NCBI GenBank assembly: GCA_002803225.1
Contig: NXFV01001211.1
Location: forward strand, 48,012-112,011
DNA: 64,000 nucleotides
From: Gamarada debralockiae
Lineage: Eukaryota > Ascomycota > Leotiomycetes > Helotiales > Hyphodiscaceae
Direction: 5' to 3'
The notes under the pieces are model-generated. The model had not been told where the DNA came from and made no database searches. It saw nothing but the letters and a program-made list of their open reading frames with translations. Shown one piece after another: positions 1-64,000 of the stretch; the first letter of the stretch is position 1; the number at the start of each line of letters is the position of its first letter. The position numbers and the translations under genes were made by a program.

Positions 1-3000
1 TTATCACGAATCTCGAAACAGCGTCAAATGACCGCAAATCCTTTGCTTACTTCTTTTTCCGAGAAGAAGAAGATAACCTCAGATCCTTTACCGAAGCTCG
101 TAAGTATGAACTAGTTTCTTGCCACCCTGTTCGTACCTATCTGCGATCTAGGGTTGTAGGCCTAAAATAAGAAGGTTGGGCCTCTAACTTAGAACCTTTA
201 CTCATTATTCTCTGTGACCATCTGCTGACTAGAAATTCTTCAGTATACTGTATGTCGTATCAGCTAGCAGAAACAGACCCAAAGTACGGTGAGCAACTCG
301 CCAACGAGCTTTCAAAGAATAGTGACAGCATTCCCGATCCATGGCGGATTCAGTTTGCGGAAAGATTTCTCTCGAAAGGCGAAGATCATACCTATCTGAT
401 CCTGGATGGTATCGACGAGATGAAAGAGGCAGAGCTCAGGGAAATGATCAAGTGCCTGGATCAAATTACCCAGGAGAATTTGAACATTCACGTCTTGCTT
501 ACGGGCCGCCCATTAATATCGGAGCAAATGAAAGCTCTGGACTCTTCTATTATCGAGGTCTCAAGAACTAAGCTTGCAACAGACATTGAGAGGGTAATCG
601 CAGCAAATCTCAAGAAGCTTCCTCGGGTCAAAAAATTTCGGAAGCCGGTCAGATCTTATATCCTAAACAAAGTCAAAGCCAGTGCTGATGGTAGGTCTCC
701 CCAATCCTCAACCACGATCTACGTTTAGTGTACCGCAAATTCTGAAGCTATATAGGAATGCGCTATGTAGATCATATGCTGAGACGCTTAAACGTCATTG
801 GTCGTGAGAAGGCTGTACTCAAAGACCTAGAGAGAAACCTCCCAGGAAATCTCCAGGAGTTATACGAGTTGATGTTGAGCGAGTGCCAGGCCAACAGAAC
901 GAATGAGCAATATCTCACACTCAAGAAGCTTTTCGCTTGGCTGGCTTATTCTAAACGTGCTTTGACACTCGACGAAGCAGGGGAGCTGATTGCTCGAACC
1001 GTTGATGATGACAAGACCTTCGACATCGAAGATGAAATCATCGGCAGATCTGCTAGGTAAGTTTCTCATGCTTCAATGGTTGCTTCAATGCCAAGATTGT
1101 TCTGACCACAACAGAATTCTGGAAATCGTCAGAAGCCGCGACGGTGAGGACGATGATGATGACGATGCGAAAGCCGACGACAGCGACCCAGCCAATGATA
1201 GCATAGAAGTTGACCTCCATGATGGTGGACAGACACCCCTGGCTTTTCAGGAGCGATCTCTGCGGGAATACTTCCAAGCTGTGGATGTCGATGAGAAAGG
1301 CCTCCGAACACCACCTTCCACTGCTCATCTTACCATATTTGAAATGGCAGCTGATTTGCTGTTCAATGCTGGCGATCAGCTCAAGGATAATGAACAACCC
1401 AAGTTGCTGTCTTATGCCGCTGATTTCTGGGCACAGCATTTTGTGGAAATTGACCTTAGTAAGGCCACTGATGAGGAGGTCAAACGAGTTGTCAATGTTC
1501 TGTATAGCCTTATGAACAACCACAACAACGTGGCAAGAACTTTTGAGCATTTCGCTGAATTATCCTATTCCGAAATGACTCCTGAGGGTCTTTGGCTGAA
1601 TACTCTTAAAGGGTGGACTGGGAAGGCTATCTCATCGGACTGCGGTCAATTATTGACCCCTGAGGTCGAAAAATGGGCGAAAGAGATCACTTCATCTCGA
1701 GAGCCACTGATGACGCTGGCCCACGGACATGTTATCAATTGGTACAAGCAATACAACGGTGGGCGAATTTTGAAGGCGTTCACCTTCGCAAGGGATGCCT
1801 TTAAATTGGTAAGCAGATCCAAACAAGCAATGACCATTCTCGGAATGATGTATTTGTTGCTGATTAATGGATGTTTAGTCGGGCATAGATGTTTCAGCTG
1901 ATACTGCCGAGTCTGTCCTCAAAGTGGCAGACCACTTTCCCGACATCGAAAAAACAGCTGGATCTATGAGAGCGATCAGCGCGAGTCTCGCTGAGTGAGT
2001 ACAGTTCATACATTCCTCTCTATTAATCCAATGATCTTGGAGGATACAAGGCATACCTCACTCCATAAGTAATATCCTGAAAGTTGTTTTTTGTCGAATG
2101 TTGCATAGTTCTTCGAATGTCGGTTCCTTGTAAGAACAAAAATTGACTTTACGATCTTGCAGGCTAGAGCTCATCGAAGACTCGCTCAAGTATTCAACTC
2201 GAGGCTTAGAGATGCTAGAGACAGGTAATAGTGCTCTGAGGTTTTACCTCATGAGATCCGTCTCTATGTCTCATGCTTCTTTGGGCCGCCACGAGGAAGC
2301 AATTCAAGAGGTTGACAAAGCCATCGAAGCCTTGCCTCCGGACTGGAAAGACGACGAAGAGCTCGTCGAAGTTGTCGAGTGGATATATGAAGAGAAGGGT
2401 GGCTACCTGCAGGTCCTAGATCGACCAGCTGAGGCAATCAAGGCGTATAACACCTTCAAAGGCGTAAGGCCTGAAAGGACGCTCGATGGATATTTCCTTG
2501 ATGATATGGTTCGAATTTGGAACGAGGCTCGAGACCCGGACGGATCCAAACTTCTTGGCATGCTACATGATTGGACCGAGAAAGACAGGCTTTCCTGGTT
2601 TGGATACATATTTGATTACCGCGATTCATACGCAATTGGACGGTTCAATCAGATTGCCGTGCAAAATGGTGAGGATGGCAAAAACTTCTTGCTGCAGTGC
2701 TACAACAAATATATGGCCACAATCCCCGCGCACTCGGACAGGATTATTTACTCACAAGTTGATTTAGCAAACACCTATTGCAAGGTGATTAGGGACCAGC
2801 AGAAGGCCAAGGAAATATACATCGGAATCTTGAAGCGCCCTATCAAGGGCGTCGATCTTCGTGGATCCATCGAAGGACTTCTTTTCCAGGTTCGTCGTGC
2901 TCTAGCCGAGATCATCTTCGAGGAATTCTGCAAGTCCACGGACCCGACGCAGAAAGGGAAATTACTTGACGAGATGAAGAACTTTCCAAGTCAGCAAACC

Positions 3001-4017
3001 GAGGTTCACGACTATTTTCAAATTCAGGGCTCCAACATCAGTGTTATGGTGGCTCTGATGACTCGCGTCGTGGGCCAAGCTACTGAATTCCAGGCAATTA
3101 TGCAGAAGACCTTTGACACTTGTGTAGAAGGCCTCTCTGACTCAGTCGGCTGGAATGATTCAAGTAGCTTTCGGCTACTTGCAAAAGTGCTCGCGTGTAT
3201 GGAAGGCTTAGAGCGTGACGCTTTGATTGCCCTTTCCTGTCAATTCTCCAAAGTCACTGAAGAATTGGAGAACGATGACGAGACCAAGGTTGTCAAGGAA
3301 AATTCGCCTGCAGGAGAGGCTGCGGCAACTGATGGAAATACTTCTATCAATGGAGAAAATAATAACGAGGACAAGGTGGTCGATTCCCAAGACCCTATCG
3401 AGTCGAAAGATGAACCAGGAGACGGCCATCTTGACGCACCAATTCACTTCACTGAAACGACCATTTCAAGCACTACGACTGAGGACGGTGTTATCAAAAA
3501 CAGCAGTACAACCATCATCGAGCAAGCCAGCGTTGAAGCAGCGCACGAACCGGACGATGTGAATCCGAAGGGGCCCAAGGACGAGTCATCCCAGAGCATC
3601 CCCGATGAAGACACTCTGGCACCAAATCCTGACGAAGAATTGGGCATAGGTGGGCTCTTTTGTGACGGTGAATGTGGTAGGTCCTGGAGTCAATGGGAAG
3701 TGCCCATTTACCTTTGCCTCCTCTGCACCAATTGTGACCTATGTCCGACCTGCTATAACAAACGCATGGCTCAAAACAGAGGGGAACCAACCACATATTG
3801 GCGGCCATATTGTGGAGAAAATCACCGATACGTCAAGGGCCCTATCAAAGGTTGGAAGGGGATCAAAGGGGGGATAATGAGGATTGAAGGTGAGGATGGT
3901 AATGTGGAGGAAATAAAATTCCAAGAATGGCTCAAGGAGTTGAAGGAAGAGAGGTGGGTCAATGCTTGGGAGAACTTTTGGAGGCGGCTGGACGGAGTGA
4001 GAGACCTTGGCTTTTAA
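1..4017 (+). CDS. NACHT/TPR NLR-like protein, 3' part (5' end outside window)
   Basis: This is an STAND/NLR-type signalling protein of the kind linked to fungal self/non-self recognition. My exon model is <3-99, 244-690, 756-1056, 1115-1808, 1879-1994 and 2163-4017; the phases agree at every junction. The first exon holds the YFFFREEEDNLRSF stretch that follows the P-loop in fungal NACHT proteins. The next holds a Walker B-like YLILDGIDEM, then a winged-helix-like region with NLQELYELML. The Walker A motif must lie left of the window. The centre (about 1190-3200) is helical and TPR-like. The C-terminus has an acidic Ser/Thr-rich linker, then a Cys-rich module (CDGECG, then CLLCTNCDLCPTC near 3660-3750) resembling a ZZ zinc finger. 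No frameshift or internal stop is seen. The family is clear from the motifs; the role in incompatibility or immunity is inference. Confidence 0.85.
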
Positions 4018-4215
4018 TATTGAATGACAGGCTCCGGCTGTTTCCCGGCGCGTTGGGAAATCTGCAACTTGATTTCGATTCAATTGACCGCCGGAAGACC
4101 GAATATCACACGTGAATTTTTTCATGATTTAGGAACTTGCCTCGTCCGCCGAGAATAGATATTATTCCCAAGAGGCAGATTGAAACAATATGCATTAGGT
4201 TAATGAGTCTGTCAC
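4018..4215. other. Convergent 3' intergenic spacer
   Basis: About 200 bp separates the stop codons of two convergent genes. No coding or repeat signal is seen. Confidence 0.5.
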
Positions 4216-6906
4216 TCATCGGAGCCAATAAAGTGCAACCACACTAATCCCCCACACCACATGCAAAACCCACACACTCCCCGTCCCCGTTGACCTCTCC
4301 GCTCCACCCAAAAACAGCGTCCCATTATACCCACTACCCGGAACCCGCACATAACTACTCGTGCTTACGCTCGTGCTCTTCGGTGTCTCAAATCCCCCAA
4401 TCGTCGCGATTATTCCTCCCAAACTAACTTCAGTCGTGCTCGGCCCCAGCAAAGCACTCAAAGCCTCTGTCTGCCCTTCAACCACTACACTCGACCCTCC
4501 TTTCTGCAAACTCACTGCTTCCCCAGAAACCGTGATTGCTGATCCGCCCGGAATCAGCGTTTGAGAAGCAACAACATATTCGGGAGTTGTTGCCATTAAG
4601 CCGCTGAGAGGCTGCGTGCTGCCATCTATCATAACTGTAGATCCGCCTGCTGGTATAGAATACGTCATTCCAGACGCGGTCACTGCTGGACCACCTGCTG
4701 ACAGTGTTTGAGACCCAATAATAAACGCAGCGGAAGCCGACGTTACGTGAGCGAGGGCCTGTGTTATTGTGCCTCCGAATATGAGAGCGCTGCCGCTGGG
4801 GTCAAGTGAGAGGACTGTTCCGGAATGCATGATCTCGCCTCCCGGAATGAGGGTTTGAGATGCTATCACGAAGCCCGAGGCTGAGTTTGCGGTAATTGTT
4901 GAGCTGCCGATTGTGACGACCGCGGGTGGGTGACCTTGAGAAGAAGTCGGTCGTTGGGCTGGGGGAACGTTTGCTACTGATGTTGCAGACGGCGCTGAAG
5001 GATCACTGCCGGGTACTTGCACAGGGGGTTCGTTTGAGGCCGGCGAGGGAGAGATGGCTGGAGAGTCATCGCTGGGAGCCGGAGTTGGAGGGTCTTTTGT
5101 CGTAGAAGTAGGCGTTTGAGCCGGTGGATCATTTTTCACATTCGTCGTCTGATCTGCGTCCACAGCTGTCATAGTAGCGGCTGGGGTCACCGGCGCAATC
5201 GTCGGCCCCGCAACAGCAACACTCGTGGTCATCGCCGGGCTGTCTGTAACGGGATCCGCAATAGTCGCAAACGCAGAAAGTTCATTCCCAGATGACAGGG
5301 GATAAGGCGGATCGAAGAAGCCCGCTATACCTTGCATGCAAGTGCTCCACAATGTATTGATAGTGAAGAGCTCAGTTGGCACAGACATTGTCGGCGAGCA
5401 AGGATTATTAGTAACGGTATAGTGGTAAAAAGTCGACGACTCTGTAGGCCAATCCGTTGGTATAGCATCATAGGTTTCCACGCCGTAATAATAGGCGTAA
5501 TCTGCGCCGACATCCGATCTCACCCACTGGTAAAATGACTTTGTAATGTCTGTACAGCTTTTTCTGTTCTAGTCGTTAGCTATCTCGAATGAATGGAAAG
5601 GCGCTAGGGTACACTTACTGGTCCTCCCAGGTGGCGGGTGCGTAGAGTGGTGGTAGAAATGGCTGCGATGCGTTATACTCTGCGGTGTTCCAGAAGTATG
5701 CTGGCGCTGTGGAGAGATCGTTCTCCTTGAATGCAAGCGTAGTAGCGTCATAAACATCTCCTCCTACTGTTCCGCAGAAATCAGTGGCGTAGAGTGACTG
5801 AAACGCTACATAAACTGAAGGAGACTTGCTGCATATGTATCAGCAAAAGTTATTCCAGAGCTGGGACTCAACATACAAAGTGAATTTCGCCGCATTGACC
5901 AGCGTCGATACTGCAGGTGATGCTGTAGCCGGAGGCCAGTAGTAAACCTGGACATTGCCTCCAAAAAGAGTGCACTCCTTACAGCAAGGCGAAGTAGGAA
6001 CGTAAGTGAAATCCGACAGATACCCAGCAGGAGAATACGCTGCTTGTGTGTACCCAGCAGTGGTCCACCCTGTGAATGTGCTGGTTGTTGCCGGCCACGC
6101 GCTTCCTAAGTAACTCGTCTCCGTGAACGTAACCTCAACAATTGCGTACGTCTGGGTGTAAGTAACTTCTACGCCGTCAAAATCAACGCTCACTATGAAA
6201 ACCTCAAAATCAGCGCTGCTCACAAGGGGGGTTTAATGGGCACCTGCCCCTCCTAAGGATTGCAACATTCAATAGAAATCCGGGAGCAGAACGCACAAAT
6301 TGAACATGAAAGGAAAATAGTGCTCCGAAAATACTTACTACCCGTTGTCATTGAGAAACTAGTAGCAGAAAGTCCATCATAGACTTGAACAGTCAGCGTA
6401 TCCGTCGTTGTACTGACAACCGTCGAAGTGACGGTGCCTGAGGTCCCAGTCATGACAAATCCTGGTTCTGCATCCCAAATCGTGGTCTGTGGGATCAGCG
6501 ACCCGTAGGTAATTGGAGCCGTGTGCAGCCATTCGGTCAATGAACTCGCCCATAGGTCTTCGCAATAGCTGACTTGACTTGCGTACGCTGGACTGTAGTT
6601 GTGAATTCCTGGTGTGTAGTATACGTTTATATAAGGGGTGGTATAATATGCATAAGTTGGTTGTCCCTCTCGATCACAGACCTGACCTGCATCCGGGAAA
6701 CAGGGTGGGGCAATGATGGGGGCAGTGGCCCAGCCATTTGGGGTGAAGTTCGAGGATGATGATCCCGTCGTTATTAATGTTCCCTTCGTAGCTAATGGTA
6801 ATGTTGTGGTCATGTGTAAAGTTGAGGACCTCGAACTTGAAGTCGTCGAATTCGTAAAAGCAGGGGCGCCATTTACCAGCGCGATGAAAAGACTGAAAAC
6901 TAACAT
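4216..6906 (-). CDS. Secreted, probably GPI-anchored repetitive surface protein
   Basis: Four exons, 6906-6339, 6192-5877, 5828-5619 and 5563-4216, join in phase to give 813 residues. The N-terminus MLVFSLFIALVNGAPA is a signal peptide, followed by a Ser/Thr-rich stretch. A Tyr/Trp/Cys-containing ectodomain spans roughly the first half. A Pro/Ser/Thr-rich linker leads to three tandem repeats of about 47 residues, each opening with a variant of VIASQTLIPGG. The last 20 residues are hydrophobic and preceded by Gly/Ser, as expected of a GPI signal or a membrane tail. Proteins with this repeat are common in filamentous ascomycetes, but I know of no function. The acceptor of exon 2 at 6192 is the least certain border, because the other nearby acceptors meet a stop or the wrong phase. 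A cell-wall or surface location is inferred. Confidence 0.8.
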
Positions 6907-7879
6907 CTTCCAGTAACGACTCGGATTATGCTCTATCTCATCGTGGAAAACTTGGTAACGACTGTGAACATTCGAAGAAAGTCACTGACGTTCACATGAA
7001 ATCTCGTGAAACAATAGGATATTTGCTCATTGGCAGCGGGTAGGGTATTTAGGTCTCTGCCAGCTACGTAGATCTACTCCCAATATACTTGTTAAATTAG
7101 GAAAGTGCTCCCCAAGCTTTAAAACCTGGTTAGTGTCCATTTAATTGACAGAAGGATCGAAGCCTTGTCTCGAAACCCCGTTACAAGCAAAGATTAACCA
7201 TAATAAACGTCCATTTGCACAAATTGCGTTAGTTATCATGCATGTGATGAGCAACTGGGACAAGAAGTCAGGGGGCCAGGCATTTTTCCGGTCAAGCTTT
7301 GCCCAGTATAGGTTACGTGCCGAACAAGATAGCGCTGCGCCGCATTTCCCCTGCTGCTTCCTTACGCTACAAGCCGCCCTCGTGTTGCCCAACTTTCACT
7401 TACAACCAGATGCTCCCGTTACAGACAAGCCAGCAAATCAGGGGTCTGGGGTGTTTCTCGTTGGAGAAACGCCGATGTATCTTTAAGGCAAGGCTGCGCT
7501 ACCTTCGAGCCCTTCGCGTTCACCATAACTGGAATTGATCTGCAGTGTCGGTCTCGATACCTTGTAGGAAAATACCCCGATAAACTGCGATGATAAGATT
7601 CCCATGTGAATGGCAGGTTTTGGATGGGCTCTCCTAAAAAGAATGAAAAAAGGACAAACGATATTCTGACTGGACAGTCAGCCATCTTCAATCGGTGTTC
7701 TGGATAAAACAAATCAGAAGCTAGATCAACAGAGGTCGGTACTGGCCGGGTGATCAAAAGGCATTCATTCCACTGCATAAGATGCAAGCTACGAGGCTCC
7801 AACAGTACTCCACACGACGCCCAAATCCCAGAAGCATCCACCAAACCCTAAAAACTCCATCCCACCCGGGCCCAGATTA
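6907..7879. other. Intergenic region, promoter side of the surface-protein gene
   Basis: About 970 bp lies between the start of the surface-protein gene and the 3' end of the Rab escort gene. The short open frames on both strands have no family features. Nothing else stands out. Confidence 0.4.
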
Positions 7880-28018: not shown

Positions 28019-29163
28019 ATGAACCTCTCTAGTTTGGTCCACGCTGGTAGACATCAATCAGAGCAGCAATTCTCGCAATATAATCCAAGACATCAACAAG
28101 CCATGGCTTCTTCGCTGATTGCCAACCCATACACAGCTCAATCTCTCCCTCAAAACCCATCCTACTCATACGTTTCCGCACCCCAACCACCACCATCACC
28201 TCCAATGGACGAAGCTTCCAAGTGTTCTCTACCATCGATATCAAGTCTATTGGGATTGGCCGATGGCTCAAGTCCACAGGAGCAAGCTCAACAGCAACAA
28301 CAGCAAGGTCAGTCTTCCTTTTCAGCTTTCCAAGCCATCAAAACTAAAACCCTCCAAGCACAGCAACAGCAAAAGGTTGAATACAGGCCTGGTTCTGGAC
28401 ACCAGTATGGCCCATCACCATCGATGAGCTCTCGAGGTGCTCTCCCACCAACCCCGCCAATGCAATCGGACTCAGGATTTGACGGACGACAATCACCATC
28501 AACAGCATCCAACTCTGGATACTCTGTTGTCTCTGCACCTGGGTACTACTTCACTCCTAATTCAGTCTCAGCAATCAACAACATGGAGCCTCACGCTCAG
28601 CGCCAACACGTCCCAGCTTTGACTCGAAGGGTTTCGATGCCAGCGACTTCAATAGCATATAATCAATCGCCATACAATGGCTCTCAATATGCAGCTAGTC
28701 CTAGCCAGCAGTCGATGGGCTCATACTACTCGAGCCCGATGCAACCCACACCTCCTCAATCTCAGATCTCTGGTCTTTACTATCAAAGACCTCTTCCTCA
28801 AGTATGTCGAGTGCCCTGTTCTCTACTTCAATGCTAACAATCAATCAGCAATTCCCACCTCCATTAATGCCGGTATCAGTTACGCTCACCCCTTCATCTG
28901 GAGCCAACCCATGGCAACATCACCACTACATCTCCCCATCATCCGCTGCTGCCTTCCCTCAATCCCAAGATCGATACATTTGCCCTACGTGCAACAAGGC
29001 ATTTTCTCGACCATCGAGTTTGAGGATACACTCTCACAGCCACACAGGCGAGAAGCCATTCAAGTGTCCTCATCAAGGTTGCGGCAAGGCTTTCAGCGTC
29101 CGAAGTAATATGAAGCGACACGAACGAGGATGCCACACTTTCGAAGGCGGATCGATGATGTGA
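28019..29163 (+). CDS. mtfA: MtfA-like C2H2 zinc-finger transcription regulator
   Basis: Exons 28019-28801 and 28849-29163 give 365 residues, with a 47-bp intron of clear GTATGT/ATCAG borders. The start MNLSSLVHAG resembles the conserved MtfA N-terminus. It is followed by a SPPMDEASKCSLPSISSLLG block that recurs in this family, then Gln/Ser/Pro-rich activation-type sequence. Two zinc fingers close the protein: C306/C309/H322/H326 and C334/C339/H352/H357, joined by an HTGEKPFK linker. In Aspergillus MtfA controls secondary metabolism, conidiation and protease genes. The same role here is inferred from the family. A later in-frame ATG at 28106 is possible, but the family N-terminus supports the first. 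Confidence 0.8.
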
Positions 29164-46971: not shown

Positions 46972-48899
46972 ATGGCTACCCCTTCGAAAGACGCGCCCAG
47001 CGTGCCAGAATATTCCATCGACTTTGCTTCTGGCCCGGCGTCTCCCGGTTCTGAAGATGAATCCCCAGCAACAAGTCCAATTACTGAGGGGTCAAATATA
47101 CCTCGTGTCCCCTCTCTGCGAGCCGTACCCGATCAACTCACCGCATCCTCCATGACCGCTTCCTCGACACCCATCGGAATGCTGAACAATGCGCGAAGAC
47201 CTAACGGTCCCCCAGCTGCTGCTGCGAGAGGGGGTCTACCACAAAGTATGGAGGCAAAGATGAAGGCATTCCACCTCTCAAGGCAAGGCACGCCGCTCGC
47301 ACGACCTCAAGTTGGTGGATCAATATCTACGGGCTCGACCCCAGACCCAGGCCCTGGGGGGCGCGCAATTGGAGGTCTACCAGCTGGATTACAATTGCCA
47401 CCGAATATGCGACCACAAGCACATAACTTCGTTTCTGCCCCGTCAGTACCGAAAGCGAAGACTGGATTGAGTGCGCGAAGAGGTATGACGTTACCAGGCG
47501 GCCTGCCAGGTGTTTCAGCACCTGCGACCCCCACACTGGATGCGAATGGCAATGCCTCCCTAAATCAATCGTCACAAGGAGGATCAATGTTCAACAAGTT
47601 CTCAAATATCGTTGACACGAAAAATGGAACCTTGAACTTCGCAGGGAAAGCGGTGATTCATGGCCAAGGAATTGATTTCAACAACGGAACTAACTTCAAT
47701 ATCTCGCTTGATGAAGTCGATACGTTAGAAGAATTAGGGAAGGGAAATTACGGCACAGTGTACAAAGTTCGACATGCACGCCCACGCATGAGAAGACCTG
47801 GGTTGGGATTAGCAGGGAACAAAGCCTGCTCGCAATCGCCTCTTACTCCATCACCCGAAAAAGAGGATGCGGAGAATGCCAGCTCTCCCAAAACTGCTTC
47901 CACGACAGGGGTAATCATGGCGATGAAGGAACTCCGCCTCGAACTGGACGAAGCAAAATTCGCCGCCATTATCATGGAACTCGATATTCTCCACCGCTGT
48001 TTATCACCCTACATCATCGATTTCTACGGAGCTTTCTTTCAAGAAGGCGCTGTATACATATGTATCGAGTTCATGGATGGTGGATCAATTGACAAGGCAT
48101 ACGGCGACGGCGTCCCAGAGAACGTTTTACGAAAAATCACCTATGCTACGACTCAGGGCTTGAAGACGCTAAAGGAGGAGCACAACATCATCCATCGAGA
48201 CGTCAAGCCCACAAACATCCTTGTCAACACAAGAGGTCAAGTCAAGATCTGTGATTTCGGTGTGTCAGGAAATTTGGTCGCCAGTATCGCCAAGACGAAC
48301 ATTGGCTGTCAATCATACATGGCTCCTGAACGAATAAGCGGAGGTGGGATGTCTGGTATGAACCCAGGAGGAGGAACCTACAGCGTCCAGTCGGATATTT
48401 GGTCCTTGGGATTGACTATCATTGAGTGCGCGTTGGGGCGTTATCCATACCCACCGGAGACGTACAACAACATCTTCTCCCAATTAAGCGTAAGTTCTCA
48501 ATAACCACCCCTTCTCAGAAATAGCTATTGACACCCATTTAGGCAATCGTAGATGGTGAACCCCCAGATCTCCCAGAAGAAGGATACTCTCCACTAGCCC
48601 GAGACTTTGTCCGCGGCTGCCTAAACAAGATCCCCAAAAAACGCCCAACGTACTCCATGCTGCTCCAGCACGGCTGGCTTGCCTCATTATCCAAGCCGCA
48701 GACGATTACCGAGGACGACGAGGATGAGGACGGCGTCGGCATGGAAATGCCGAGCAGTAGTACCGAGGACCTGGAGGTTGCAGAGTGGGTTAAGAATGCG
48801 TTGGATAGGAAGAAGAAGGGTCTCATGGGTGAGAGCCAGAAGCCTGCTCTCCATGCGGCGCCTTTGGATACCATGAGTCCGATGTCGACTCCTGGCTAG
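46972..48899 (+). CDS. pbs2: MAP kinase kinase of the HOG pathway (Pbs2-type)
   Basis: Exons 46972-48489 and 48543-48899 give 624 residues. The first 240 residues are Ser/Pro/Thr-rich regulatory sequence. The kinase domain starts with GKGNYGTVYKV (256-266). The ATP-binding lysine is K319 in MAMKEL, placed after a family-typical insert of about 45 residues. The catalytic loop is HRDVKPTN (408-415) and DFG is at 428-430. The activation loop SIAKT places the two phosphorylation sites at S438 and T442, and APE is at 451-453. The pattern IMELDILHRC and FMDGGSIDKAYG fits Pbs2 rather than the Mkk1 or Ste7 types. Pbs2 passes osmotic and oxidative stress signals from Ssk2-type MAPKKKs to the Hog1 MAPK. 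The tail is acidic. The 53-bp intron lies inside kinase subdomain X. Confidence 0.88.
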
Positions 48900-57155: not shown

Positions 57156-58793
57156 TCAAACGCTCCTTCCGCCAAATCCATAAATCTTTGCAACGCTCCC
57201 TACATTCTTTGCTCTCCCCTTTTCTCTTTCAAGTCCTAAACCTGGCATATTTCCCTTCCCCATAAACGCATCAACAAGCCCCAACCCATCCGCACTAATC
57301 TCAACAGCAGCCCATCTCTGTTCTCTTTCCCCAAACCTTCTCCCCCTTGTCTCTTTGTCGGACCCGGACCCAAGGTTGGGCGTCTCGTCCTTAAGCACCT
57401 CCACCACATAACAGTACCCTACTCCCCTCTCCACACCATCTATGCCACCCTCATCTTGGCCATATAACATCTCAGCATCCTCCCTCGTCTTGGGCAGCCG
57501 GCCCATCAGGAGATGCAGATCCGGGAATTGAGAGAAGATCTGACCGAGCGCAGGTTTGAGGGGGTTCGAGGGGAAGATTGACGTTGGTTGGGGGTTTTGA
57601 TTGGGTTGTTTGCGTGATGTTGTCGATTGATAAGGGTTGGGATATGGGTTCGAGGGATCGGCGGAGTAGGATTTCGTGGACACGGTCGTGTTGTGGAGGA
57701 TGGTTAGGATGTTTTGTGTGTGGGCTAGGGTGTGGAGGGTTTGCGAGAGGGTTGTGAGGAGGGTGTGTGCTATTGAATGTTAGTCGTAGAAGGATGGAGG
57801 AAAGGAGGAGGTGAGAGACAGGAAGACGTACATTCGCCTCTCTCTTTCCTTGCGAATAGTTCGTTGATGAGTTGCGTCATGTTGTCAATGATGATGATCT
57901 CCATACCCTCCTCATCATTCCCCTCAGTTCGTGGCTCTTCGTCGCCTTTACTCCGAGTCTCGGAATTACGTCCAACCTCACCTAAAACCTCCCAAAGCCC
58001 TTCAACATCAAACACTCTGCTGATAGCCACCATTTCCAAGCATCGCTGTACCTCTTCATTTACGCCCTTTCCATTTACATCATCCTCACCAACCTTTCCT
58101 TCATTGGCCCCATAATTTCCGGTGGCTGCGCTTTGGCGGTCATGCTTTGATCTGGAAGCTAGGATTCGAGATTTTAGGATCTTAGCTAGAAATGAGATTG
58201 GGAAGGAGCCGGTGGTGTCGATTATTGTTGCTTTTGATTTGGAGGGCTGAGCGGGCTTGGTAGGGGAAGTTTCCGAGGTTGAATGGTGAGAGAGGAGTAT
58301 TGAGCTCAGGAGGCGGAGTGATATCTTTGGCTTTTTAGTAAACATGCATGACAATTTGGGATTTGAGAAGGGCTTGAGGTAGAGAAATGAGCTCTGCTCT
58401 TGGTTTGTGAAGAATCAGGAAGACGGCAATGTTTGTAGCAACACATCTTTGAATAACTTAACCAATATAGAACGGTATTGGGCTAAGTCAGCTTCAAGAA
58501 GGACTGGCTTCTTGCAGTCTGAAGCAGACATAACACGTGACAATCGAGAAAGGGCAAAAAGGGCAACTTACCAGTCTACCCTCTCCTGCCTCAGCACTGA
58601 TACCCACGACTATTCCTCTCTCACAACCACCGCCAAGCATATAATCATCGATTTCCCCACATCCGGTTCGAATTCGTTCTCCTCTACCTGAGAACCGCTT
58701 CCGCTGCTTCTCTTCCATGGCCAGGAGATTGGAAGCGAGGATTGGTCTGGCTGGTTCTGGCGGAGGAATTTCTGTATGGTCTATTTCAATCAT
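57156..58793 (-). CDS. RecA/RAD51-family recombination protein, paralogue type
   Basis: Exons 58793-58572, 58324-57832 and 57769-57156 give 442 residues. The order of family elements is a GCGEIDDYMLGGGCERG segment, which precedes the P-loop in RAD51 paralogues, then VGISAEAGEGRLISLRLLSS. ATIIDTTGSF, the helix block LEMVAISRVFDVEGLWEVLG and a Walker B-like MEIIIIDNMTQLINEL follow. TLAHTQNILTILHNTTVST closes the core. The C-terminal third is rich in charged and Pro/Ser sequence. The P-loop lacks the usual GKT/S (it reads GEGR), so ATP binding may be weak or absent. The acceptor at 58324 is chosen because it joins GRL to ISLRLLSS in phase; an alternative 63 bp upstream keeps frame. RAD51 paralogues assist strand exchange in DNA repair; the exact orthologue cannot be named. 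Confidence 0.7.
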
Positions 58794-59325: not shown

Positions 59326-62300
59326 GATGATCAGCGATTCTACGACGTGCAACAAAGCTGAAATCCTCTTCCTTTGGACCTCAAGCTTATTCAATTGGTG
59401 GTCTGATTGCTTCGCCAGAAAGCTGCAGAAAACGCTGTTCTTGACTTCAAACCCCCAGACAGTCCGTCCCAAGACCCTTGAGAAGCTGGATGTATGACGT
59501 GCAACAGATTCGTATCTCCTCGGGTTCTCACGCATCCTTCTATTCATCCTTCTTTATTTGAAGACCACAACACTACGCTAAAAGCCGTAGAGAGTTTGGG
59601 CATGGTGGGAAAGGGAAGTTTCGTTTCACAGCTAGCCTCATTTTAACGGCTCACGCCGCTCCAACCTGGGAGATCGACATAATCTCAGACTTGCAACAAA
59701 ACTCTTTTGACTTACTTTTTTTGGAGGGGATTTTAGGAAGATTATAGGTTTGTTAGGGTGTATAACAATGCATTCAAACGGTTTCTTCGGGACCGTTGAG
59801 TTTCGGGGCAGCCAATACGGGTGGTCGGGAAGTAAAAGCTTGTGTCACGTGAACTGACCAACCACGTTTCTTCCCGATCATCCAGAGCTTTGGATGAATA
59901 AAGTTAAAACGCCCTTCTGAAACTTTACATCTCCCTCTTCTCTGCAAACATCTGTATCCGAACATCCGAAACAACAACACTCTGCTAAGTTCTAACTATT
60001 CAAAATAGGAGCCAAGCAAGTCATCCAGACATCCAACCAACTACAGTAGTGCTTAAGGCCCAGCCCCATCTTCCCCCAAGCAGTCAAATCAGAAGAAATC
60101 AGCAAAACTGCGACTTGCAACAATCTCTTTGCCTTTTCTTCACTGCTTCAGAGTTCCGTAGAAGTGGGTTTATAACTTTCTAATTACCTAAATTCTATCG
60201 TTTTCCCGGAGGATTTACAAGCAGGGAACCTGAGACCTTGTCAACGGCCCGCACCTTTCGATCCGCCCAGGCCATCCCCTCATCTATTCTTGAAAGATCT
60301 GGGCGCTTTTACGATGTGCAACAAGCATAGATCTTATCTGATTGCCTTTCCTTTCAACACCATTGGACGGCTCTAGGCCCTCTATACCCCTTGGCGCTCT
60401 TTGTGATACGGGAGATCGGCAATTATTGCGATATGCAACAAAGGTTATGATGCTATCCCTTTCATCAACTTCTTGAAGACTCATTTGACAGCTTGTATTA
60501 CTCCGGAACGTCGGGAGTTGGTTTTTGAGTTAGTCTCGGTTTGTACGGAGTAGAGGCCATGAAATCAACCACGTGATCTCTAGACTGCAATTCCCCCACG
60601 TCCATACGTCCTCTTTCTCGCACGTCTAAGCATCAATAAAGACGTGGAGCAGGTAGTTCTCAGGTCTGGAAAGATTAAACCCCTTCCTACAGGGCTCTCT
60701 AACCAAGAAAACGGGAGAACCTCAATTTCTCCGCACCGAGGTTGCTCGCCTTGTCTCCCATCAGCGCGACAGCAATCTCTCGGGCTCCGGAACTTCCTAT
60801 CTAATTTAATTCCCATGAAGAAAGATCGACAAAAAGTACGACGTGCAACAGAATCCTTCATTATTTCAAGATATCTTCCAGTCCTACTTTCCGTCTCCAA
60901 ATTGGCGTTTCGAATAAACGTGGTTGGCAGGTCATCCGAGGTGGCTTGGCTATCAGCATCCAGACCCGATCATCCCACGGTTGTGTACCGCGATCGACAC
61001 TTTCTGCGATTTGCAACAAAACCTTTTCCCTTCGATCCATTTCCCGATGTGAAGCCCTCATAAGGCAGTTCGGGAGAGTCTTCAGATCTCGCTTTATCGG
61101 GCTTGTACAGTAATTAAACTGTCAACATCTTGGTGTCGACAAAGTAGTATCGGCCACGTGCCGAGACCTCTTTCCACCCAAGACGTCAAATTCTCTTCTT
61201 GTTCTTATTCCCGGAATCTAGGCATTTCATTCGACGTGCATCAAACAGATCCGGTCAACTAATCTTGGACACCTTATTTCTACTCGCTCTGCCATTCACT
61301 CAACTACAACTTGCTTTGGGTTTTCCACGAAGAAAGCCCAAGCTATGCCTCAGAAAAACCTGGTCGCCAAGCGAAGGCCATCTTTCAATCACTCCCAGCC
61401 GCTCCACATCCCACGCTGAAGAAGATCTGCATATTATCAGACGTGCAACAAAAGAAGGATAACAGCTGTCAGGTTTAGTCTTAGTCTCCTTTAGATTGGA
61501 CCTCTCGGCAATCTTCAACAAAGTTGCTTTGTTAAATCAGGCGTCCCGAACCAGGCAAACCTATGCGGAGGCTTCCTTTGCAGCCCTCTAGATCTTCTCA
61601 ACCGGTGTCAAGGCTTGGCTCAAGACATGATTGTGACACATTCAGGCGTGCAACAAAATGCATTAACACTCTTATACTTTGTGGCTTCGCTTTATTTGGC
61701 GGGCAATCTTCCATGTCGATTTAACGCCTCACGAGACTCGGCCCGGTGCAACGCGCCTGTGGACCCCTCCAGGCCACTGCACCTCCGACGTTGAAGAAGA
61801 TAGACGCTATATCAGACGTGCAACAATCGGACGAAGTCTCTTATGATCCTCTAAGAACCGTTGCATTATATTTGGCGTCTCAGTTTTAGCGCAAGGCTGC
61901 ATCTCGAATCCAAGCCTCCGGCTCTGGCCCTGTCCTCTTGAACCTTCCTGACCCCTCTACGGCCCGTATGATCATATAGTCGGCGCGAATTCAGACATGC
62001 AACAAAATTTGAAACATTCAATTCTTAGTTCTTCATCTCTTACATTGGTTCTGGCCTCGATATTCGGTACAAAGGCGTTCTGTCGAATGCGACTCTCCGA
62101 TGTCGCGTGACATCACGTCGACGCCTCTGGATCCCCTCGCTCCGAGTGAAGAGCTGATCGGCGCGAATTCAGACGTGCAACAGACTGAATAAACAGCTTT
62201 TGATTGTTTGTCTTCCTCAATTTTCCTTATATTCCCCCGCGTTACTGACTCGAGAGCCCCCTTTCTAAGTTGCAAGCTTTCCCGGTCTTTCGAGCTCTCT

Positions 62301-62720
62301 GGACCTCTTTATCCCAGTCGGGAGAGGATCACCATCGCCACGAAGTTAGACCTGCAACAAACCAAATAAACGTGCCCATATTTCCCTCTTGTTCTGCTCG
62401 AAATATACTTGGCTGTATCCTTACACGAGACGTACTTCAAGTTTCAAGCCTCCCAACCTTTTGACACCTCCAGGCCTTCTTTATCCGGGTCAGGAGATGA
62501 TCGGCACCATCTCAGATGTGCAACAAAATGAATACAGATGGCCCAGGTATTCCTCTTCCTGGACTTGAAATGTCCCTCGTTGCATGTTTTATAGGAGATC
62601 TATTCGAGTTTCAAGCTCCTTTGTTTTTTCGACCATTCTATGCCTTTATCCAGCATCAGAGCATAAGGAGATGATCAGCATGATGTCCCATGTGCAACAA
62701 ACATTTCTTTCCGTGTTTCC
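59326..62720 (+). repeat. Array of at least 17 diverged repeats with a GACGTGCAACAA core
   Basis: A core close to GACGTGCAACAA starts at 59344, 59496, 59688, 60112, 60313, 60430, 60840, 61008, 61233, 61440, 61645, 61815, 61994, 62172, 62349, 62515 and 62689. Most spacings are 150-225 bp; the last seven are 166-179 bp. One is 117 bp, and two double-length gaps near 59900 and 60600 may hold degenerate units. In 12 of 17 units GATC lies about 12-25 bp before the core, as in GGAGATGATCAGCG. Downstream some have AATAAAC, then a T/C-rich stretch. The rightmost units also share CTTCAAGTTTCAAGC and CTCCAGGCC-like blocks before a TTTATCC word. The TGCAACA heart is far better kept than the rest (only 61233, TGCATCA, differs). 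No frame stays open through the array. I do not recognise the element. Confidence 0.75.
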
Positions 62721-63559: not shown

Positions 63560-64000
63560 TTATACTGCCCTTCCACCACGTGGTATTTTACCCAGATCAA
63601 ATCCAATAAAAGTAACTCGACCGGACGCATGCCCCATTACAAGAAGGTTATCTCGTACAGCTAAATGTGTCGGTCGACAATCAGGAGGAAGCCATAAAAT
63701 ATTTTCTGTCCGATAAGCCACCCATTGCTCTTTGACATACAGGTATGATGAAAAATCGGACTGTGGTTGAACAACTGAGCGACAGAGACAGCTGAGCTCA
63801 AATAATCCGCGCTCTGATTTTAGATATGACCCATCACTAGAGAAAGAAAGGTTATGAATCAATCCTTCAGTGCTAAGTATCTGAATTGCTTCCTTTGTCC
63901 TTGAGTCCCAGAGCCTGGCTGTGTTATCGGCCGAGGCAGAGGCGAGGAGCTGGCCGTCTGGCGAAAAGGCTACTGCGTTGACCCTATTTGAATGACCCTC
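63560..64000 (-). CDS. WD40-repeat protein, 3' end (probably NLR-type), runs off the window
   Basis: The frame is open from the right edge to the stop at 63560 and gives the last 146 residues. It starts inside a canonical WD40 repeat: [20 protein letters not shown], then [13 protein letters not shown]. Another repeat-like strand set follows ([14 protein letters not shown]), then a C-terminal cap ending [19 protein letters not shown]. In fungi, repeats this regular usually form the sensor part of NACHT-WD40 (HET-E/NWD-type) NLR proteins, and such proteins often end with this kind of less regular blade. The N-terminal effector and NACHT parts would lie to the right of the window, so the class is inferred from the WD40 end only. 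Confidence 0.8.

Follow-up and report, generated by a model that had tools for sequence, protein, structure and literature searches.

The 17-fold repeated core of an intergenic array in Gamarada debralockiae is an element of the whole genome. The window, i.e. the complete stretch of 64 kb analysed here, lies at the very end of contig C571, and the array it contains is not a local satellite. Its core belongs to a directional element, about 22 bp long, that has several hundred genomic copies, mostly intergenic, and the array is the largest cluster of this dispersed element met in our analysis. We consider it probable, at roughly 60 %, that the motif is recognised by a single sequence-specific DNA-binding protein and that local duplication has multiplied it, with the spacers drifting apart in sequence. 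The protein is putative, and selection on its sites is argued from the comparison of copies within this genome.

Results

The array is bordered by an ORF at 57770-58354 (minus strand, without Pfam match) and by a WD40-repeat gene, of which 63560-64000 (minus strand) is the 3′ end. The initial annotation had described at least 17 diverged units, mostly 150-225 bp apart, and all 17 were found at 59326-62720, on the plus strand throughout and with the spacings it had given (Table 1). Counted from start to start, the distances from core 1 to core 17 are 152, 192, 424, 201, 117, 410, 168, 225, 207, 205, 170, 179, 178, 177, 166 and 174 bp. TGCAACA, said to be kept in all but one unit, is indeed unchanged in 16 of the 17 cores, the exception being the one at 61233. 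Outside the core, and in addition to what the initial annotation had noted, T is found at −3 in 17/17, A or C at −1 in 16/17 and A at +12 in 14/17 cases. An alignment of the 17 units contains seven invariant columns, every one of them within or just before the core. The plus strand of the array is pyrimidine-rich.

Table 1. Motif copies in the window; positions refer to the first letter of the window as 1.
Feature	Position	Strand	Basis
Homotypic array, 17 motif copies all on the same strand, intergenic	59326..62720	+	core search and matrix
Core 1, GACGTGCAACAA	59344..59355	+	matrix 25.8
Core 2, GACGTGCAACAG	59496..59507	+	matrix 13.9
Core 3, GACTTGCAACAA	59688..59699	+	matrix 24.6
Core 4, GACTTGCAACAA	60112..60123	+	matrix 19.6
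Core 5, GATGTGCAACAA	60313..60324	+	matrix 21.9
Core 6, GATATGCAACAA	60430..60441	+	matrix 25.1
Core 7, GACGTGCAACAG	60840..60851	+	matrix 21.7
Core 8, GATTTGCAACAA, top matrix score of the window	61008..61019	+	matrix 28.0
Core 9, GACGTGCATCAA, sole copy with altered TGCAACA (TGCATCA)	61233..61244	+	matrix 14.7
Core 10, GACGTGCAACAA	61440..61451	+	matrix 24.1
Core 11, GGCGTGCAACAA	61645..61656	+	matrix 20.7
Core 12, GACGTGCAACAA	61815..61826	+	matrix 18.0
Core 13, GACATGCAACAA	61994..62005	+	matrix 23.6
Core 14, GACGTGCAACAG	62172..62183	+	matrix 18.3
Core 15, GACCTGCAACAA	62349..62360	+	matrix 19.6
Core 16, GATGTGCAACAA	62515..62526	+	matrix 24.6
Core 17, CATGTGCAACAA	62689..62700	+	matrix 19.1
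Possible decayed copy GACGTGCGAGAA, inside the gap of 410 bp that separates core 6 from core 7	60615..60626	-	score 8.4
Isolated candidate copy TACGTGCAACAA, outside the array	28986..28997	+	matrix 13.7

The proposal that the core is held while the spacers drift agrees with the unit alignment. Over 136 unit pairs, the 95-bp upstream flanks show 60.2 % identity compared to 57.5 % (sd 2.8) after shuffling, whereas the 13 positions of the core agree by 85 % in the same pairs. In favour of a neutral, decayed satellite or a product of chance, the units of an array show traces of common ancestry. With a core at 85 % against flanks at 60 %, a genome-wide excess of the word over its control (99 versus 0, see below) and the same word kept in clusters with unrelated flanks, we assign this reading a next to negligible probability. 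GATC, the second conserved feature of the initial annotation, does occur up to 30 bp upstream of 12 of the 17 cores (counted by eye). It is a property of this array and not of the motif; across 97 exact sites from 41 sequences, hardly any base preference is seen at positions −16 to −13.

Searched for as a plain 12-mer with up to three mismatches, the core yields 69 matches in the window compared to 50.6 in shuffled sequence, and one of 100 shuffles is equally high. Because this barely exceeds chance, a position matrix was trained on other loci (124 sites at L010-L049, window excluded). Its score is at least 13 at 19 places in the 64-kb window, 17 of which are the listed cores while two lie elsewhere; ten dinucleotide shuffles of the window gave a mean of 0.4 and a maximum of 1 such place. 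The objection that the core might be no more frequent than random sequence predicts is answered by the matrix; the plain 12-mer tests it poorly. Outside the array, window scores have their 99.99th percentile at 4.6, which the possible decayed copy exceeds.

Genome counts were obtained on the 54.3-Mb assembly of 1112 contigs, with the reversed pattern as control. Allowing up to three mismatches, the 22-bp consensus TTTGCGAYGTGCAACAAAACTT occurs 99 times compared to 0 for the control, and the 16-bp word TNMGAYNTGCAACAAA with at most one mismatch 483 times compared to 56. Exact words gave 105 versus 3 matches for GATGTGCAACAA, 109 versus 5 for GACGTGCAACAA, 45 versus 12 for GAYCTGCAACAA and 102 versus 15 for GAYWTGCAACAA. 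On the counts of 483 versus 56 and 99 versus 0 and the comparison of the matrix with the shuffles, an origin by chance was rejected. Seen from here, the local array first described is real, but its motif is dispersed over the genome and not confined to the window.

The matrix derived from the other loci has the consensus TTTGCGATGTGCAACAAAACTTC. The edges of the motif were read from the 97 exact sites of the 41 sequences, to which the window contributes 11. These sites had been selected on letters 0 to 11, so that only the surrounding letters are informative. Position −3 is T in 74 % of the sites and −1 is C or A in 95 %, whereas A stands at +12 in 88 % and at +13 in 59 %. Information does not exceed 0.16 bits at any position outside −8 to +18. 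A search of viral contigs with the exact 19-bp pattern found no motif, and six 10-mers of the motif, looked up in the open-access literature, led to no fungal repeat by title among the matches listed. The exosome subunit RRP43 in the window shares 87-91 % identity over at least 95 % of the length with its best five matches, the best named one being from Hyphodiscus hymeniophilus (Leotiomycetes, Helotiales); the fungus is accordingly a leotiomycete.

For the clustering analysis, 345 of the 361 exact sites were used, spread over 207 contigs. With a limit of 1 kb they fall into 264 groups, 214 sites being single and 131 lying in clusters; 81 gaps of up to 1 kb compare to 2.2 expected. Outside the window, 23 of the 52 same-strand gaps of 60-400 bp measure 145-185 bp (6.3 expected if uniform), and these spacings come from 12 of 25 loci. 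The peak at 145-185 bp is broad, and a second spacing group occurs at 64-116 bp. Some sites are merely 44-66 bp apart, and neighbouring sites on opposite strands account for 16 gaps outside the window. A direct pattern search revealed no pair of GACGTGCAACAA cores at a distance of 120-150 bp, and around 15 isolated sites no clear composition wave was seen at ±160 bp. In a scan for helical phasing the spacings gave a best period of 9.7 bp (p about 0.009 after the period scan, with low power at 10.5), a value which is not relied on.

The loci compared in the following were sampled non-randomly: twenty 10-kb loci were taken from contigs C4-C113 (two of the places listed there being passed over), and a further twenty short ones were chosen on the basis of clustering. 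Between the resulting 41 sequences (40 loci and the array end), blastn gave 172 matches. At 164 of them a motif copy is present in both partners, and these matches span 17-49 bp with a median of 22 bp; the other eight comprise a repeat (about 100 bp) shared by L011, L019 and L025 as well as short weak matches. Flanks are related inside one cluster and unrelated between clusters, which points towards separate local duplications that keep the same word.

This comparison also bears on mobile elements. The motif could be a transposase binding site, or its copies could be remnants of one mobile-element family with terminal or subterminal repeats. Opposite-strand neighbours (the 16 gaps mentioned above) and 35 genome matches to a DNA-transposon HTH domain are in accordance with such an origin, and autonomous copies may be absent from an assembly of 1112 contigs. 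A search for inverted repeats in four loci, considering the five longest pairs each, revealed pairs on either side of a cluster in L014, where two imperfect ones (28 nt at 82 % and 26 nt at 73 %) flank the sites; the best of these is, however, no better than shuffles, 2 of 20 of which reach it. Judged from a passage of PMC6382973, the reversed core has TTTGTTGCAC in common with bacterial ISAba12-type terminal repeats, but a likeness of 10 letters may be chance. A 481-bp query from the array matches solely itself at E 0.001, and the loci have almost nothing but the motif in common, the longest of the 164 matches reaching 49 bp. The alternative raised in the initial annotation, fragments of a common transposon with the core as its best-kept part, is therefore not borne out, and we regard a mobile-element origin as decidedly unlikely.

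Breakage is another way to connect the word with duplication. If the motif were the target of a site-specific nuclease or a break or recombination hotspot, breakage and repair could create tandem duplications and spread it. Sites within local duplications of many unrelated sequences would be explained in this way, and one cluster contains an rRNA gene fragment (L014:3909-4184). A cut site, however, is expected to be destroyed and not kept; 214 of the 345 sites are without a neighbour within 1 kb among the sites listed, and the rRNA fragment is the single one in 35 loci scanned. We judge this explanation quite improbable.

Only 3 of 32 exact cores lie inside ORFs of at least 150 aa, which cover 42 % of the 20 loci. 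Neighbour genes with a Pfam match are ordinary ones; they encode, for instance, an NADH dehydrogenase-like protein, a bZIP factor, Sey1, RNase HII and a JmjC protein, further ones histidinol dehydrogenase, tubulin cofactor D, a RasGAP with IQ motifs and SelO. A gene-family regulon was considered and rejected, as 30 + 18 further neighbour ORFs belong to unrelated Pfam families or to none. According to ORF positions and families, sites are located near gene starts (e.g. L026) and also beyond gene 3′ ends (e.g. L016, L021), and for this reason a promoter-only role is not favoured. Gene orientations around the sites were tallied as 9 tandem, 2 convergent and 1 divergent, with 10 undetermined, which is too few and too varied to decide the matter.

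In non-ORF DNA, CACGTG occurs 15 times in the 20.9 kb up to 200 bp from cores, 6 times in the 22.2 kb at 200-1000 bp and 17 times in the 74.2 kb beyond. Its density near cores is about three times that farther off, an enrichment to be read as post hoc because CACGTG had been picked out by a k-mer screen. CCAAT, raised by the k-mer screen as well, showed no enrichment near cores in a controlled count.

Precursors of snoRNA-like or other structured RNAs, as suggested by the initial annotation, did not find support. With E values of up to 5, Rfam models matched nothing in the array, and there was no match in the window at gathering score, with two weak C/D models outside the array. In 35 other loci (L025-L029 left out) the single match was the LSU rRNA fragment inside the cluster of L014. 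H/ACA models matched neither the window nor the 35 loci, tRNAs were found neither in the window nor in 40 loci (bacterial settings), and the 17 units gave no consensus fold. Just upstream, on the motif strand, there is a slight folding bias (mean z −0.30 and −0.33, se 0.11), and at most 7 % of the sites fold with z < −2 in any 50-nt stretch tried. The fixed ACA resembles H/ACA boxes and, like the pyrimidine-rich plus strand and this slight bias, would suit structured non-coding RNA modules, be they H/ACA or other snoRNAs or repeats of a long non-coding RNA. In view of the results from Rfam, tRNA and fold searches such modules appear highly improbable.

Unstructured transcripts are a separate case. 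Each motif could serve as promoter element for a separate small unstructured RNA, with the arrays as rows of such genes, in analogy to the Ruby motif of nematodes. The motif is directional, the neighbouring sequence is unique, clusters are intergenic and some sites lie past gene 3′ ends, all of which would fit; a passage of PMC11262695 further describes that the comparable nematode upstream motif recruits a nucleosome-positioning factor. In contrast, neither TATA nor T-runs are in excess downstream, no strong signal at a fixed distance was seen to the left or right of the motif, and distances of 44-66 bp between some sites are tight for one gene each. At three U2 snRNA loci (about 3 kb) the best matrix scores were 1.5, 9.9 and 8.3. 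Taken together, we hold this possibility to be unlikely. An snRNA-type promoter element, judged on the three U2 loci, was also rejected, none of them having a score of 10 or more.

A coding origin was considered with the frame GAY-NTG-CAA-CAA (D-x-Q-Q). In several loci, a TGA or TAA stop immediately precedes the core. Within the array, the two CAA codons end in A in 16/17 and 14/17 cases; genome-wide figures for these letters are biased, since the searches fixed them. Because stops precede the cores and the third letters of the CAA codons stay A, this reading was rejected.

Discussion

A directional word of about 22 bp without conserved structure, situated in non-coding DNA and in clusters that seem to have arisen independently, looks like the binding site of one protein. 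One motif is locally enriched to a significant degree in the non-coding DNA of the array, as is characteristic of homotypic clusters of protein-binding sites. Among the three options of the initial annotation (protein-binding sites at nucleosome-like spacing, small-RNA or snoRNA-like precursors, a long non-coding RNA with repeated modules), the first describes the data best: the motif is found genome-wide and mostly outside long ORFs, and the spacing of 145-185 bp recurs at other loci. A CENP-B-type DNA-binding domain was followed up among the candidates (35 genome matches, many with stops) and rejected, as no link to the motif was seen.

Sites are found alone or grouped into homotypic clusters with 2 to 17 members, and clusters would grow by local tandem duplication of a site-bearing stretch. 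The stretches between sites would then diverge almost to randomness, whereas the site would be kept because the putative protein must still bind. A spacing of about 145-185 bp fits bound sites placed in the linkers between single nucleosomes, if they are indeed positioned there, and an array could in this way establish a phased chromatin domain acting as boundary, silencer or long-range regulatory module. That arrays retain the core could in part be due to recent duplication of intact units, and the spacing peak could arise from the duplication mechanism. The folding bias upstream is unexpected for a pure DNA site.

A more specific form of the binding-site reading is a dedicated fungal chromatin-organising element, with a protein that reads the 22-bp word one nucleosome apart and intergenic arrays that serve as phased boundary or silencer domains. 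We put this forward tentatively, as a possibility on the unlikely side. To our knowledge, no sequence-specified, genome-wide architecture of such kind is known in fungi, and titles and abstract starts in the open-access literature revealed no comparable fungal architecture among the matches listed. A 22-bp word that stands hundreds of times among ordinary genes, with arrays kept and the rest of their units erased, would imply a genome-wide DNA-reading system in a host from a little-studied group of fungi. If the putative protein acts on chromatin, fungi would gain a sequence-coded counterpart of insulator or CENP-B-type elements.

Comparison with known systems

Homotypic clusters of transcription-factor sites are similar in that many copies of one directional site occur in non-coding DNA, here with CACGTG nearby. 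In contrast to such clusters, the sites described here share no common gene class, are not confined to gene starts and show the peak at 145-185 bp. The motif is also longer than most sites of fungal factors. The word of the Ruby motif, which belongs to the type-I piRNA genes of C. elegans, differs from it as well. Like our motif, Ruby is directional, clustered and located upstream of unrelated sequence, and its factor positions nucleosomes, as stated in passages of PMC11262695. Compared to more than 10,000 Ruby copies there are hundreds here, without a fixed-distance signal and without a copy scoring at least 10 at the three U2 loci. H/ACA snoRNAs are characterised by two hairpins, a hinge box and an ACA 3 nt from the end, features that were not found in the array. 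Terminal and subterminal repeats of DNA transposons carry several copies of a transposase-bound word close together; unlike DNA transposons or MITEs, the loci compared here have no repeated body in common, with the reservation that the assembly may lack whole elements.

When the matrix consensus was compared by eye with the 17-bp CENP-B consensus, no match was seen. Relative to the units of about 171 bp in alpha satellite, spacing here peaks broadly at 145-185 bp with additional distances of 64-116 bp, the units are more diverged, the arrays are small, and hundreds of single copies lie among ordinary genes. The CENP-B box is, according to passages of PMC3966626, a motif in the tandem units of human alpha satellite that is bound by a sequence-specific protein. 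According to the same passages, the human word of about 17-20 bp sits in units of about 170 bp that have otherwise diverged (PMC3966626), a layout which the array resembles within the broad spacing given above. Because of its different word, its small arrays and its single sites among genes, the motif is not classed as a CENP-B box, which may serve instead as its closest working analogy.

Spacing, folding and snRNA genes

Same-strand spacings in the 40 motif-bearing loci found elsewhere in the genome (L010-L049) exhibit a weak periodicity at 9.6-9.7 bp (p ~0.01), a value that differs from the helical repeat of DNA (10.5 bp). On the motif strand of the 97 exact sites a slight folding bias was observed in two stretches of 50 nt, one spanning -53 to -3 and the other -40 to +10 relative to the core, the 12-letter centre of the motif, with mean z values of -0.30 and -0.33, respectively (se 0.11). 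The same genome contains three diverged U2 snRNA genes (L063, L064 and L065; 137.7, 118.6 and 94.6 bits), as well as four U1-like matches, all of them under the family cut-off.

Sequence features at motif loci

Further features are compiled in the table. The rRNA fragment is located within the C20 motif cluster and is flanked by one minus-strand and one plus-strand core. In the L020 duplication, a single motif core occurs in each copy, where an aligned block ends; the dispersed repeat is located apart from motif cores. The additional matrix match in the window, GACGTACAACAA, probably occurs by chance.

Features in the window and at motif-bearing loci (L-numbers)
Feature	Position	Strand	Details
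GACGTACAACAA	window 48459-48470		matrix score 14.5; within protein-kinase ORF 46972-48504
Perfect palindrome, 34 bp	L032:365-398		immediately upstream of a core
Large-subunit rRNA gene fragment	L014:3909-4184	minus	model positions 359-664
Old tandem duplication, ~3.6 kb	L020:223-1367 and 3886-4987; 2537-3625 and 6133-7244		77% and 69% identity
Dispersed repeat, ~100 bp	L011:6025-6135, L019:241-350, L025:1352-1450		85-86% identity
Tandem repeat, period ~102 bp	L028:1-1361		in open frame of 458 codons

Comparison with bacterial insertion elements

Ten letters of the reversed core TTTGTTGCAC recur in GGCTTTGTTGCACAAA, the terminal repeats described for ISAba12-type elements of bacteria (PMC6382973). 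This match is possibly due to chance.
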